Source: Candidatus Levyibacteriota bacterium (lineage in GTDB: Bacteria > Patescibacteriota > Microgenomatia > Levybacterales > UBA12049). From it: a stretch of DNA of 41,451 bases. Location of the stretch: assembly GCA_013816255.1 (NCBI GenBank), contig JACDET010000009.1, forward strand, positions 979 to 42,429, in the 5' to 3' direction. The notes beneath the pieces were generated by a model. It was not told where the DNA came from. It made no database searches and saw only the letters and a list, made by a program, of their open reading frames with translations. Each line of letters begins with the position of its first letter. Position 1 is the stretch's first letter. Positions 22,790 through 35,957 of the stretch are shown in pieces. A program made the position numbers and the translations under genes.

Positions 22790-22862
22790 GGTGGTTGTAG
22801 CTCAGTGGTAGAGCATCAGTTTGTGGTACTGAATGTCGCGGGTCCGATTCCCGTCAGCCACC
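22790..22862 (+). tRNA. tRNA-His (anticodon GTG), copy 1
   Basis: Starts with the extra G-1 typical of tRNA-His, then GTGGTTG paired to CAGCCAC. Anticodon arm TCAGT-TTGTGGT-ACTGA carries GTG; discriminator C73. CCA is encoded directly after (22863-22865). The body is identical to the copy at 24359. Confidence 0.95.
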
Positions 22863-22941
22863 CCAATTTTTTTATCCACAATTTTGTATATCAAACCATT
22901 TCACCTCAAGACAGTATTTGGACCTCTGGTATAATATAAAA

Positions 22942-24262: not shown

Positions 24263-24358
24263 TTTCCGCGTCCTAAAACTATAATTCACCCAAGGTTCAA
24301 AGCTAGTTAACCCCCGGAGTTGCATATAGCTTAGCTGATCTTCACCGCGCTTAGCGTG

Positions 24359-24431
24359 GTGGTTGTAGCTCAGTGGTAGAGCATCAGTTTGTGGTACTGA
24401 ATGTCGCGGGTCCGATTCCCGTCAGCCACCG
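24359..24431 (+). tRNA. tRNA-His (anticodon GTG), copy 2
   Basis: Identical over the whole tRNA to the copy at 22790, with G-1 and anticodon GTG. It is followed by GCA instead of CCA, so its 3' end must be completed by CCA-adding enzyme. The upstream 35 bp are also related to copy 1, which points to a segmental duplication. Confidence 0.95.
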
Positions 24432-24506
24432 CAAAAAACTATAGATTAATTTTAGGCTCTTCTTTTAACACTTGTAATTCATTCTACATTTTGCATTAAT
24501 AAATTA

Positions 24507-30330: not shown

Positions 30331-31320
30331 CTAAGGATTATAAACCCGAATTTTTTGGAAATTTAAAATCGGGGAAAAGATATTGTTTGTTCCGGGCTTG
30401 GAACCTTTATCAATAAGTACTGTTGCTGCTTGAGGAAAAATTTCGACAGATAACTTTTTTGTTGGCGGAAAATGATTTCCATCACATTGGTATGCCTTGG
30501 GGCCGCTAAGTGATTCAACAGTAATCTTTTTTCCTTTAAGAAGTGTGTAATGTGGACTCTTATTGATATTGCCAAGTAACGCATTTCCCAAAAGACTCAA
30601 CCAAGCAGGATATCCTGATGCTTGGATGATGCCAACGCGCAAAACTCCATTTTGAGGATAAGCTTTTGGCACTGCTTCAATGCCTCCCTGTAATTGTCCC
30701 ATGTTGGCTATCATAATACCTTTGGCTGTATATGTCACACTCTTTTTTCCGTCGATTGTAACTTTATACTTTCCTGCTCTCCGGTGAAGATTATTAAATC
30801 CACTGACGAGATACGCCAAAGGACCAAATTTGGTTTTCAAACTTCTTTTGGCTTGCCGCATCACGTCTGCATCAAATCCCATTCCAGCAATAATTGCAAA
30901 GATAGTATCATTTGCCCGTCCGACATCTACTTTATGTTTGGTGCCAAATAATGCCCTTTGTATCATGTCTTTTCTTGAGCCAGTAATAGTAAGATTTTGT
31001 GCAAACAGATTACCTGTACCTAATGGCACAATGCCGAGTGTGATATCTTTATTAATTATAACTTGAAGAGCTTCCATAATAGTTCCATCCCCACCGCAAA
31101 CAACAATATGCGTAATCCCTTTGTTCATCTCTTCAATAGCTATGTCACTAGCACTGAGCGTTTTCGTTGTTTCAACAACGTTTCCTCTCCATCCTAACTC
31201 TTTGGCAATATGCAAAATTTCATCTTTTCTTTTTTTCTTGTCACCTTGTCCACTAACCGGGTTGATGATAAAGAGTGCATCTTTTGGTTCAGTTTTTGTT
31301 TGATTTTTTTTCGCTTTCAT
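30331..31320 (-). CDS. Diacylglycerol/sphingosine kinase family (YegS/DagK-like)
   Basis: 329 aa. TATTAT lies 6 nt before the ATG. DAGK catalytic domain: ALFIINPVSGQGDKKKR, then HIVVCGGDGTIMEALQ with the GGDGT nucleotide site near residue 79, PLGTGNLFAQNL, and AGMGFDADVMRQAKRSLK. It should phosphorylate a lipid alcohol such as diacylglycerol using ATP at the inner membrane. Neighbouring GT4 and PspC genes fit membrane lipid metabolism or stress. Confidence 0.9.
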   Translation of the reverse strand: MKAKKNQTKTEPKDALFIINPVSGQGDKKKRKDEILHIAKELGWRGNVVETTKTLSASDIAIEEMNKGITHIVVCGGDGTIMEALQVIINKDITLGIVPLGTGNLFAQNLTITGSRKDMIQRALFGTKHKVDVGRANDTIFAIIAGMGFDADVMRQAKRSLKTKFGPLAYLVSGFNNLHRRAGKYKVTIDGKKSVTYTAKGIMIANMGQLQGGIEAVPKAYPQNGVLRVGIIQASGYPAWLSLLGNALLGNINKSPHYTLLKGKKITVESLSGPKAYQCDGNHFPPTKKLSVEIFPQAATVLIDKGSKPGTNNIFSPILNFQKIRVYNP

Positions 31321-31694: not shown

Positions 31695-33818
31695 TTACTT
31701 ATTTATATAGGGAATCGTAAAACAAAAAGTTGATCCTTTTCCTTTGACACTTTCTACCCAAATATCGCCACCATGACGCTTTACTATTTCCGCTGAAATA
31801 TAGAGTCCTAGTCCAAAACCCGCAATATTTTTATCTTCATGATCTTTTGTTCTATAAAATCTATCAAATATTTTTTGCTGATCTTCCAGACCGATTCCTG
31901 GACCCAAATCAATTACGCAAATAAGCGTATTTTCTTTATCTTCTTGCACTTTCACAATGACTTTATTAGCGCGCGGAGAATATTTAATAGCATTTGTGAG
32001 AAGGTTTGATATGACTTGCGAGATTCTATCTGCATCTCCGCACATTTGTTTTTGTAATTTCCCTTCAACTTTTATTTGATGTTTGTCTGAAGTGTACTGC
32101 ATATCAGAAACTGTTTTTGCAATTAACTTATTTCCATCAAACATCTCTTTCTCCAAAACTAATTTGCCAGCTTCTATATTACTGACGTTAAGCAGATCAT
32201 TGATAAGTTTGGTGACTTTATCTGTTTGTGTATTTATATTGTCCAACAGTCTTCCATATTCACCATTTTTATGGTCTTTAAGTTTTTTGTACAACACTTG
32301 TGAAAAAGCTTTTATTGAAGTTATAGGCGTTTTTAATTCATGTGATGCCATACCCAAAAATTTATCTTTTTGCCGGTCAAGCACTTGCAGTTTTGCATGA
32401 GAAATTTGTAACTCTTTTGTGGCATATGCGACATTATCACTTAATGTTTTATTAAAACTTTTAATCTCTTCATATGACTTGGCATTTTGAATAGCAATCG
32501 AAATCACCGGTCCGAAAATTTCTAATATTTTTATATCCTGAGGTGTATAAATTTCTCCTGACTTTTTACTTCCCAAAACGAGTAACCCTTCATTATAAGC
32601 TCTGTCAGTGAGCGGCACCGCGATAACTATTCCTAATTTATGCATGAGATGTTTTATGTCAGCATCTTTTTCTTCGTCAAGAATTACCATGCGATTTAAT
32701 GTATATACAGCATCGACAAGATCTTTCTTAAAGGTCGGCAATTTTTTATATCCATCCGCGCTTATGGTAAATCTATTCTGCTTGCGGTAAATGATAAATG
32801 CACCTTTTTCAATTTGTAATGTTGTGATTAGTTTATAAAGGGTTTTTTGTGTAAGATCTTTCAGTTTTACATTGGATGCTAAGATTGTTGTCAGATTTAG
32901 AATAACTTCATCAGAGTTATATTTACTGCTGAAGAATACATTATCGGTTGCTCTTTGTAAAATACTTTTTATCTTGTCAAAGGTGAGAACAATAATGACC
33001 GCGAGTATAGCAGATATAAACTGTTGATCACTTCCACTTTCTCCTTGGAAGACATATCTGCTCAAGAAGAAAATACCCAAAGTGTACATTGAAGCTAATA
33101 CTGCAATTAAGAATGTATATGATACAGAACGGGCAAGAATCAGTCTGATTGCCAGGAGTCTATGTTTGACTATGGCATAAAAGATAAGGCCGACAAAGAT
33201 AATCGAGAATATTGGGCCATAGATTACGAAGTCAGAAAGATTAAAAAGTACTACAAAAATAAAGTTGGTTAAAATAAGAAGTGAAAATGTCACGCTGATG
33301 CCAAAGACCAAAAATTTCAGTTGTTGTTTTTCAATTCCAGCAGAACGTTTATATTTTTTGATAACCTCCCATATTCCAGCTATTGGAAGCCCTATAAAGA
33401 GAATTGCGAATAATATAATTGCTGGTCCTGGCGTTGGTGTAATTTGGGATCCTACTATTGTTACACCTGAGAATAGTAAAGGAGTAAATGCTAATCCCTG
33501 TACCAGAAGGGTTAGCACTACTATCGCATTGAGGAATTTTTTATTGATCTGTAATTCTTTATTGGGAAAAGCTTTAATAAAGAAATAGAGTACTGGACCC
33601 AAAGGAGCTGTGATAAACATAACCGCGCGTATCCAGAACAGTGTACCTTCTGGGGTAGGGGAATTAAGTGAAAAATAGTTAGCTACCGTCCAGAGGGCAA
33701 AAATGACTGTTAAACCGGTGAGCAAGCGGTTCGTGGCGCTGTTTGAATTCTTTTTATAGCTTATTATCCCCAAAAGGACATTGATAAAAGCTGTCAGCAA
33801 AATAATTGCTAATGTCAT
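31695..33818 (-). CDS. Sensor histidine kinase (7TM-type sensor, GAF, HisKA, HATPase)
   Basis: 707 aa. Residues 1-250 contain about eight membrane helices of the HisKA_7TM type. A linker and a GAF-like domain follow at about 300-445 (LQIEKGAFIIYRK; LGIVIAVPLTDRAYNEGLLVLGSK). The dimerisation/phosphorylation helix has MASHELKTPITSIKAFSQVL with the His near 492. The ATPase domain has NLLTNAIKYSPRA, VIDLGPGIGLEDQQ and AGFGLGLYISAEIV. It should sense a membrane-soluble or small ligand. No response regulator is in the window. Its ATPase end has a dead relative at 1306-1506. Confidence 0.93.
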   Translation of the reverse strand: MTLAIILLTAFINVLLGIISYKKNSNSATNRLLTGLTVIFALWTVANYFSLNSPTPEGTLFWIRAVMFITAPLGPVLYFFIKAFPNKELQINKKFLNAIVVLTLLVQGLAFTPLLFSGVTIVGSQITPTPGPAIILFAILFIGLPIAGIWEVIKKYKRSAGIEKQQLKFLVFGISVTFSLLILTNFIFVVLFNLSDFVIYGPIFSIIFVGLIFYAIVKHRLLAIRLILARSVSYTFLIAVLASMYTLGIFFLSRYVFQGESGSDQQFISAILAVIIVLTFDKIKSILQRATDNVFFSSKYNSDEVILNLTTILASNVKLKDLTQKTLYKLITTLQIEKGAFIIYRKQNRFTISADGYKKLPTFKKDLVDAVYTLNRMVILDEEKDADIKHLMHKLGIVIAVPLTDRAYNEGLLVLGSKKSGEIYTPQDIKILEIFGPVISIAIQNAKSYEEIKSFNKTLSDNVAYATKELQISHAKLQVLDRQKDKFLGMASHELKTPITSIKAFSQVLYKKLKDHKNGEYGRLLDNINTQTDKVTKLINDLLNVSNIEAGKLVLEKEMFDGNKLIAKTVSDMQYTSDKHQIKVEGKLQKQMCGDADRISQVISNLLTNAIKYSPRANKVIVKVQEDKENTLICVIDLGPGIGLEDQQKIFDRFYRTKDHEDKNIAGFGLGLYISAEIVKRHGGDIWVESVKGKGSTFCFTIPYINK

Positions 33819-33870
33819 TGTATCCAGAGCTTACTCATTTTGGATCAAAAATGCAAGTATCTATATCATT

Positions 33871-35145
33871 CTATGCAGCTTTTAAGTCATCAAGCATATA
33901 AGCTTTATTTGTAGGGACAAGTTTCTTCCCTTCTAAACGTTCTTTTCGTATCTCCAGCATTGTCTTTACTACTGCTCCAGCGGATGCATCAGCAGATGCT
34001 CCTGTCTGGGCCCAGAAACTTCGACCTTCTTCGGCTGCTTTATTAAAGTAATCAGCTTTTATGTATTCTGGCCCAATAATTCTAGTAGCCATAGCAGATG
34101 CTTTCTCAAATGAAATTTTGGTGTCGGAATTAATAATATTCCAATCTTCTTCTGTGAGTCCAGGGAAGATGGGATCATCAGGACGTTGAACGTTAATAAC
34201 AGTTCCAAACCCAACGTCTGTAGCCATGATGACGGTAATACCAAGTCTTTGCGCTTCTTGTCGTAAACGTACTTTCTCGCGAATATCATCAACTTCTTCA
34301 AAAAGGAAATCAGCACCTTGCATGAATTTGGTTCTATTAGACGTTTTATTTGAGCCATCGCCAAGATTTTGCGGAATACACTCAATATTCAAATGAGGAT
34401 TTCGATGGTATGCTTTAACAGTCCAGTCAATTGCATGGTTTTCCATTAGATTAGCAACATCTGCATCTGTTACTCTGTTTTCATCATGAAGAATTACAGT
34501 TCCCCCATCTGCGACACGAAAGTTTTGCACACCTGCTTTAACCAAGCCTTTTGCAGCAGATCCACCTACACCCATTCCTGCATGAGCTGTTGTTAATCCA
34601 GCAAGCCATTCTTGTTCTTCTTTGGAAATGATAGGAAAGTTTCTTGAATATAGTGTCTCATTAAAAGGCTCTTTTGCAAGTATTGGAACAAAGAGTCCCT
34701 CTCCATCTTTTCCTGGCAATTCTGCAACAACCATATGTCTAGGCTTATTAAACCACTTCAGATATATTTCCAATACCTTTGCCTTTGGCTTTTTTTCAAA
34801 AAAATCTTTTTTTCTTTTTGACTTCGCACGGTCCGTTAACTGTTCTTTAAAAGTATCTTTGATAACGTTTTTTTCAAGTGCTTCATCAAAAAGTGTAAAA
34901 TCATCTTTCATTGATTCTGGCTTCCAAGGAGCGAGTGTTTTGATTCTATCAGGAGCAGTTCTAAGAGAAGTAATAAAATTTTTCCATCCGTCGAGACTTC
35001 CAAGTGGGTAAATAGGACATTTTGGAATAATTAATTCTCGAGGTCGATCTATCTCTCTTGCTCTTTGAAATTCAGCTAATCCTGCGTTATGTAGTTGTTC
35101 TCTATTATCTTCAGAGGGTATTCCTGCTAAACGTTCACTATTCAT
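33871..35145 (-). CDS. ThiF-like E1 adenylyltransferase
   Basis: 424 aa. Residues 1-185 form an unassigned N-terminal region (RELIIPKCPIYPLGSLDGW; MVVAELPGKDGEGLFVPILA). The Rossmann ATP fold follows: TAHAGMGVGGSAAKGLVKAGVQNFRVADGGTVILHDENRV, with Asn-Arg kept in HDENR where sNLNR is usual, then NPHLNIECIPQNL. The protein ends AQTGASADASAGAVVKTMLEI. The usual CxxC zinc knuckles are not seen. E1-like enzymes adenylate a carboxyl terminus or a small acid. It begins 2 nt after the stop of the acyltransferase-like gene (TAATTATG), so the two are coupled. Confidence 0.75.
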   Translation of the reverse strand: MNSERLAGIPSEDNREQLHNAGLAEFQRAREIDRPRELIIPKCPIYPLGSLDGWKNFITSLRTAPDRIKTLAPWKPESMKDDFTLFDEALEKNVIKDTFKEQLTDRAKSKRKKDFFEKKPKAKVLEIYLKWFNKPRHMVVAELPGKDGEGLFVPILAKEPFNETLYSRNFPIISKEEQEWLAGLTTAHAGMGVGGSAAKGLVKAGVQNFRVADGGTVILHDENRVTDADVANLMENHAIDWTVKAYHRNPHLNIECIPQNLGDGSNKTSNRTKFMQGADFLFEEVDDIREKVRLRQEAQRLGITVIMATDVGFGTVINVQRPDDPIFPGLTEEDWNIINSDTKISFEKASAMATRIIGPEYIKADYFNKAAEEGRSFWAQTGASADASAGAVVKTMLEIRKERLEGKKLVPTNKAYMLDDLKAA

Positions 35146-35147
35146 AA

Positions 35148-35903
35148 TTATGCAGCTTTGAGTGGGACTTCAGCAGTATATCTTTTGGGAGGATCCTTAG
35201 GATCGTACCAATGAGGTCTAAAAATTTCTGCTGTTCTTCTTCCATCCTTAGACAATATAATTTCCTCTCCCTCACCAAAGTCAAGCTGTGTTGAGCGAGT
35301 ATGCCTTATAAATTCATTTTTTGCAACTGTCACAATTTTCTTTTTACCGAGTGTCTGAGCGACTTCAACTATACCGTTTGGGGCATCAATGAGTTCTTCC
35401 AGTAATTCTGTTGTTTGATTGATTCCATCTTCACGTGTTCCACGAAAATCTTGAACCGCAACTATTCTTCCAAGTTCACAGAACGTATCATCAAGTTCGT
35501 CTTGTTCAATAAGTTTATTAATCTCAAGGTTCTCATACGCTACTCTGCCTGTTACTGCTAAATTATTACCCCATGGATGTCCATTATGTGCAAAAGTGCA
35601 TATTGTTATTGCAGTACCGCTCTTTGCAATATCATCCATATACATTATCCCAGCAACTTCTAATTTGAAATCTCCTAATTCAGGGATCTCAATTGTAAGA
35701 CCCTGTATCTTAAGTTCTTTTATACGGTCCAAAAGCGGAACGTATCTTGGTGCGTATCCTTCACCCACAGCAATAGGAGCAGTACCAAGCCGTAAGTCGC
35801 TTGGTGATGTCAAAGAATTTACCGTTTCGAGCCGGGAATAGGTAAACTTGGGTACTCTATGTTCCAAACTATGAAATGCGCCTGATTCAGGATTGAGTGC
35901 CAT
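35148..35903 (-). CDS. GNAT / autoinducer-synthase-like N-acyltransferase, tentative
   Basis: 251 aa, soluble. TATAAT is 10 nt before the ATG. The central part GNNLAVTGRVAYENLEINKL, then DTFCELGRIVAVQDFRGT, resembles the strand-Arg and E-x-x-R-x-x-V core of LuxI- and FeeM-type N-acyl synthases, followed by a helix with LLEELI and a closing strand (KKKIVTVAKNEFIRHTRSTQLDFGE). The match is by eye and modest. If right, the product would be an N-acyl amino acid or similar small molecule. The coupled ThiF-like gene could activate the acid. Otherwise an orphan gene. Confidence 0.45.
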   Translation of the reverse strand: MALNPESGAFHSLEHRVPKFTYSRLETVNSLTSPSDLRLGTAPIAVGEGYAPRYVPLLDRIKELKIQGLTIEIPELGDFKLEVAGIMYMDDIAKSGTAITICTFAHNGHPWGNNLAVTGRVAYENLEINKLIEQDELDDTFCELGRIVAVQDFRGTREDGINQTTELLEELIDAPNGIVEVAQTLGKKKIVTVAKNEFIRHTRSTQLDFGEGEEIILSKDGRRTAEIFRPHWYDPKDPPKRYTAEVPLKAA

Positions 35904-35957
35904 AAACTTACTTATTATACTAGTTTTATGAGAGTGTGCAAGTTTGTGGCTGATTAG

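Follow-up and report, generated by a model that had tools for sequence, protein, structure and literature searches.

A putative acyltransferase, a ThiF-like enzyme and a 7TM sensor kinase form a candidate synthase-receptor module in Patescibacteria

Results

Organization of the locus

The stretch of DNA analyzed here, which we call the window (41,451 nt of contig JACDET010000009.1, Candidatus Levyibacteriota assembly GCA_013816255.1), contains three adjacent open reading frames on one strand, in the order A, B, C, with gaps of 2 nt between A and B and 52 nt between B and C, as described in an earlier reading made from the sequence alone (Table 1). The host genome is 1.55 Mb and 80% complete. 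The final base of a TATAAT-like box is 10 nt upstream of the A in the start codon of gene A, weakly suggesting a possible leaderless operon start. Since the box is absent from the list produced by our sigma-70 scan, in which promoter-like sites were no more numerous than in shuffled sequences, we treat it as a lead only. There is no response regulator beside gene C, and no Ubl gene was noticed among the open reading frames beside gene B.

Table 1. Positions within the window of the three genes and of other features mentioned in the text
Feature	Position	Strand	Description
Gene A	35148-35903	-	251 aa; putative FeeM/LuxI-like (GNAT-fold) N-acyltransferase
Gene B	33871-35145	-	424 aa; ThiF/E1-like enzyme, putative adenylating cyclase (TyzB/TrzS-like)
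Gene C	31695-33818	-	707 aa; HisKA_7TM sensor histidine kinase, putative receptor
TATAAT-like box	just upstream of 35912 (entry 35903-35912)	-	read in the sequence
Diacylglycerol-kinase-like gene	30331-31320	-	two genes downstream of gene C
tRNA-His gene	22791-22865		anticodon GTG
tRNA-His gene	24358-24432		anticodon GTG

Elsewhere in the window, two tRNA-His genes sharing one anticodon lie 1.5 kb apart. Like the diacylglycerol-kinase-like (DAGK-like) gene listed in Table 1, DAGK-like genes occur near the 7TM kinase in six of the other loci (L062, L066, L070, L170, L183 and L187). A role for the locus in defense was dropped, there being no PADLOC match.

The sensor kinase and the ThiF-like enzyme

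The product of gene C matches HisKA_7TM (PF16927; 2.4e-14, 54.2 bits against a cut-off of 28.6), HisKA (1.4e-16, 60.7 bits) and HATPase_c (2.3e-30, 105.7 bits), the latter two also above cut-off. It had been read as a 7TM sensor kinase with a GAF domain; the 7TM part of that description stands, whereas the GAF match is weak (21.3 bits against a cut-off of 27). Among the 20 HisKA kinases of the incomplete host genome, gene C is the sole match to HisKA_7TM.

The ThiF domain of gene B (PF00899, 9.6e-13) spans residues 166-328, and its best NCBIfam relatives are PRK08223 and the Rv1355c/TrzS family (3.8e-16), under the curated cut-off. Approximately 165 residues precede this domain. They had been described as a long, novel N-terminal region; long the region is, but much of it is common to the long-ThiF family of the operons described below, and the idea that it is unique to the 424-aa protein was rejected when relatives were found to align over much of it. 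Because the protein has only two cysteines (43 and 256), it lacks CxxC zinc knuckles, as had been noted. In this respect, and in that no Ubl gene was noticed beside it, it differs from ubiquitin-like E1 systems, which possess both features.

Several conserved residues are kept in gene B, including the invariant R168-N169, G190 and G194 of the glycine loop, D213, R224 and D286. However, D221 and H237 replace an Asn and a Lys that are present in 39 of 41 relatives, at positions that we take to correspond to MoeB N70 and K86, and the activity of gene B may be altered or lost. Its earlier description as acid-activating is placed in doubt by the replacement of two usual adenylation residues. In a search of 100 relatives, gene B matched four others.

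Is gene A an acyltransferase?

The ELGRIV motif on which the acyltransferase call was based is present at residues 143-148, and its ELGR (143-146) aligns with the EVSR/EISR of FeeM/LuxI-like proteins, which forms their E-x-x-R core motif. Gene A alone gave no match in Pfam, NCBIfam, PADLOC or, by sequence, the PDB, and among 100 relatives its sole match was itself. HMM searches for GNAT and autoinducer synthase families, which the sequence-only reading had proposed as a check, also found no match in Pfam or NCBIfam; for PF21926, PF00765 and TIGR03694 this held with E up to 10 (Pfam) and up to 1 (NCBIfam).

A link to this group comes through a second genome of the same family, G047, in which one 641-aa protein consists of an N-terminal domain with AELGRFAIPSEFR and a ThiF part that aligns with gene B over about 400 residues (5e-38). 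Since a 7TM kinase gene lies 82 nt downstream of this fused gene, the window seems to contain a split form with the same kinase neighbor, and gene C is sister to the G047 kinase in a tree of 7TM domains (SH-aLRT 98). Gene A aligns weakly with the first 265 residues of the fused protein (23% identity), at a score reached by 8 of 1000 shuffles and by nine of 649 unrelated open reading frames, and its link to the G047 domain comes largely from position. A profile of gene A plus the G047 domain matched a profile of 11 FeeM/LuxI-like proteins at 88% (2.8e-6); the G047 domain alone gave 77%, and gene A alone gave 0.2%, confined to the ELGR segment, with two unrelated profiles giving 0.1-0.2% as a control.

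A structure model of gene A made from a 13-row alignment (pTM 0.51, core pLDDT about 70-80) arranges its elements in a GNAT-like order. The highest-ranking matches to it in a fold search were nearly all acetyltransferases, with a best E of 3.8e-3 and none below 0.001. This model is of low confidence and, because the alignment includes FeeM-like rows and is therefore family-biased, it counts as support and not as proof; with a two-sequence alignment the pLDDT was 28. The proposed structural check thus returned a GNAT-like fold at low confidence, and a non-GNAT fold was not found. Taken with the motif and the fused homolog, and set against the missing family match, the model leaves the assignment of gene A as an acyltransferase moderately supported.

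ThiF genes and 7TM kinases are linked across many families

Apart from the window, the exact pair of A and B turned up in a single genome, G047; searches of the family and the class yielded no third copy, and the organism of G047 was the sole hit when contigs were searched with a profile of the two-row ThiF alignment. The wider arrangement is common. The two-row ThiF profile matched 67 of 380 Patescibacteria genomes, and HisKA_7TM lay within 8 kb of at least 48 of 70 ThiF places, with all 48 kinases downstream, on the same strand and in many families. HisKA_7TM occurred in 55 of the 67 ThiF genomes and in 110 of the 313 others (odds ratio 8.5, p = 1.3e-12), a statistic that ignores kinship and treats related genomes as independent. 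Close examination of 41 ThiF loci identified a nearby histidine kinase of one sequence cluster, often only a few nucleotides away, in 35, and 29 of these 35 kinases matched HisKA_7TM. The domain was found in 34 of the 41 genomes, usually once, and this usually single gene sits in the ThiF operon. These counts confirm that the ThiF-kinase arrangement is not due to chance. The expectation that the pair and the kinase would be linked in relatives is borne out for ThiF and the kinase; the pairing of the 251-aa protein with ThiF was seen in these two genomes only.

Other ThiF operons combine a PaaK-like ligase, ThiF, a nitroreductase-type oxidase and the kinase. The oxidase, present in most of them, is of the Rv1355c/Acg type (about 4e-54), and further partners include an aminotransferase, a methyltransferase and response regulators. 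The first gene of these operons often encodes a tryptophan dehydrogenase resembling ScyB (6e-88) or an enzyme resembling tyrosine ammonia-lyase (4e-176), and such enzymes look like a supply of aromatic precursors; examples are L045:3224-4273 and L037:8583-10133.

FeeM/LuxI-like and other enzymes also precede 7TM kinases

FeeM (PF21926) was detected in 12 of the 380 genomes. Four have the order ThiF, FeeM, 7TM kinase (G198, G217, G226 and G343), and one has FeeM, ThiF, kinase, as in the window (G256). FeeM adjoins a 7TM kinase without ThiF in five (G119, G415, G146, G154 and G181) and has no adjoining kinase in two (G369 and G276). The proteins at L286 (G198) and L167 (G119) score above the TIGR03694 and Autoind_synth cut-offs, respectively. 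At L291:6068-7984, a 638-aa protein with a FeeM-like region (a weak match) and a methyltransferase-like region lies directly before a 7TM kinase and is a possible fused synthase.

We also chose 40 loci in which a HisKA_7TM kinase lies away from any ThiF gene, and 39 of them were recovered. In 33, a same-strand gene lies directly upstream of the kinase, in many cases encoding a small-molecule enzyme: by best model, methyltransferases in 8 of the 33, HAD proteins in three and FeeM in two, as well as CqsA-like PLP synthase, ketosynthase III-like, DDAH-like and DUF362 proteins. Most often, this partner is a SAM methyltransferase, divergent and about 300 aa long (L169, L173, L175, L176, L179, L185, L190 and L192); we know of no signal made by such an enzyme. 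At L177 and L187, two tandem 7TM kinases follow one enzyme gene. By contrast, 35 control kinases without a 7TM domain were preceded by response regulators, PAS/Cache sensors and assorted housekeeping genes; the one synthase in the control draw (AONS-like, L244) preceded a kinase that turned out to be 7TM.

Sensor domains track the synthase and kinase cores the lineage

In a tree of 85 7TM domains, which like that of the kinase cores is a quick one with long branches, one branch of 36 consists of 35 kinases linked to long-ThiF genes and one linked to PaaK (SH-aLRT 99). The window kinase falls inside this branch and the kinases of FeeM-type ThiF operons fall outside it. With synthase classes assigned by hand, the nearest neighbor by 7TM domain had the same synthase class for 58 of 67 kinases (mean 22 and maximum 40 in shuffles), as compared with 33 of 67 by kinase core. 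Outside the ThiF class, the synthase class was shared by 25 of 32 neighbors for the 7TM domain versus 6 of 32 for the core. Nearest neighbors by kinase core belonged to the same family in 33 of 43 comparisons, versus 11 of 43. Within one family, 7TM domains beside different synthases were about as distant (median 4.91) as random pairs (4.96), and across families those beside the same synthase were closer (3.69). Since 7TM neighbors sort by synthase and core neighbors by family, these sequence comparisons indicate that the sensing region follows the synthase, and the transmitting region the lineage.

Discussion

The signal-and-sense circuit proposed from the sequence alone is well supported by comparison: by gene order and strand, by the usually single 7TM gene within the operon, by the FeeM/LuxI-like triads and by the tracking of synthase by sensor. 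We consider the locus to be probably a synthase-receptor module, and the balance tips toward A and B as its synthase. We infer the reactions of A and B, their product and its binding by C as follows. Gene A would join an acyl group to an amino acid. Gene B, like TyzB and TrzS, would then activate the carboxylate of the N-acyl amino acid and close it into a ring, either an oxazolone or something similar. The lipophilic product would be bound by gene C in or at the membrane, and the state of the kinase would pass by phosphotransfer to an unlinked response regulator. Exact acyl-oxazolone chemistry at this locus is a tentative assignment, with odds below even. As no nitroreductase (PF00881) was found in the operon or elsewhere in the 80% complete genome, the product, if any, is probably not desaturated. 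Similarly, since no acyl carrier protein was found in this genome, the acyl donor would be acyl-CoA or come from outside. Acyl-CoA is the donor for TyzA and TrzA.

Could the enzymes have a different function? If gene A is no acyltransferase or gene B is non-catalytic, they might form another amide or modify a protein or peptide, with the kinase perceiving the product of other chemistry. The absence of a significant family match for gene A alone, the loss of the usual Lys and Asn from gene B and the failure to find an acyl carrier protein in the incomplete genome would all fit. Nonetheless, we think this rather unlikely, as the motif and element order of gene A fit the FeeM/LuxI group and FeeM-like genes fill the same slot by ThiF and a 7TM kinase in five other genomes.

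Another possibility, which we regard as unlikely, is that the kinase regulates its own pathway, sensing an environmental or membrane cue such as redox or envelope state and switching on enzymes for a protective lipid or pigment, without binding the product. Oxazolones have been tied to stress physiology (PMC12856293), and the precursor enzymes of the relatives resemble pigment enzymes (the tyrosine ammonia-lyase of flexirubin and the ScyB of scytonemin). However, one common cue would not be expected to sort sensors by synthase and cores by family, and kinases of this family are also preceded by genes of the FeeM/LuxI, CqsA-like and methyltransferase types. That the kinase lies near these enzymes by chance or wider synteny is very improbable: in small genomes, genes often run in one direction, and there are loci here with further neighbors in common (arginyl-tRNA synthetase, bactofilin and DAGK), but all 48 listed kinases lie downstream of ThiF on its strand, in many families, and different synthases and sensors occur within one family.

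How does the proposed synthase-receptor module compare with known systems? In Vibrio CqsA-CqsS, a synthase gene lies next to the gene for a membrane histidine kinase, which senses the compound that the synthase makes, an outline similar to that of the proposed module with different enzyme chemistry. The closest enzymatic parallels are TyzACB, TrzAS and OxzAB, in which a FeeM/LuxI-type N-acyl amino acid synthase adjoins a ThiF-like cyclase, as the putative synthase A adjoins B, and a ThiF and oxidase pair is the enzyme set of acyl-oxazolone synthesis (PMC10404671, PMC12856293). Oxazolones themselves do not survive acid or methanol (PMC12856293). Relatives of the window operon likewise carry an Rv1355c/Acg-type oxidase. 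The window differs from these pathways in that no oxidase was found in its genome, its gene A is too divergent for a family match, its ThiF protein lacks two usual residues and a 7TM kinase is linked; the trz locus of Mtb adjoins cyclic-di-GMP genes (PMC12856293). Published gene sets of an N-acyl amino acid synthase, a ThiF-like cyclase or adenylyltransferase and a nitroreductase resemble these operons, and no linked 7TM kinase is described in the section consulted.

In the same bacterial group (CPR), the main text of a previous survey predicts signal synthase genes adjoining membrane sensor kinases, as in the window, comprising 51 CqsA/CqsS-like, 18 LuxI/kinase and three PpyS/kinase pairs (PMC7567580). 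That main text makes no mention of ThiF, oxazolone or 7TM. The present receptors differ from those pairs, as far as they are described there, in that all belong to a single domain family, in which the sensor part varies with the class of synthase. We found no open-access papers on ThiF-type synthase-kinase loci in Patescibacteria. Thus, adjacent synthase-kinase pairs (CqsA, LuxI) were already predicted, whereas the ThiF type and the co-variation of sensor and synthase appear to be new.

A broader reading, somewhat short of an even bet, is that HisKA_7TM kinases are modular receptors throughout the phylum, in which the sensor is exchanged together with the synthase onto a lineage-typical core, giving many private signals. 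The synthases would include the ThiF/oxazolone, FeeM/LuxI, CqsA-like, ketosynthase, methyltransferase and other types, and the window would represent a minimal acyltransferase and ThiF version making a non-desaturated cyclic N-acyl amino acid signal.

If the proposed chemistry is true, acyl-oxazolones, whose physiological role has been called unresolved (PMC12856293), would acquire a possible function in signaling. The tracking of the adjacent synthase by the sensor domain also provides a direct list of candidate signal-receptor pairs that can be tested in E. coli. Patescibacteria are mostly uncultured and depend on neighbors, so it has long been asked how they sense others, and our reading would make chemical signaling in these ultra-small bacteria testable.
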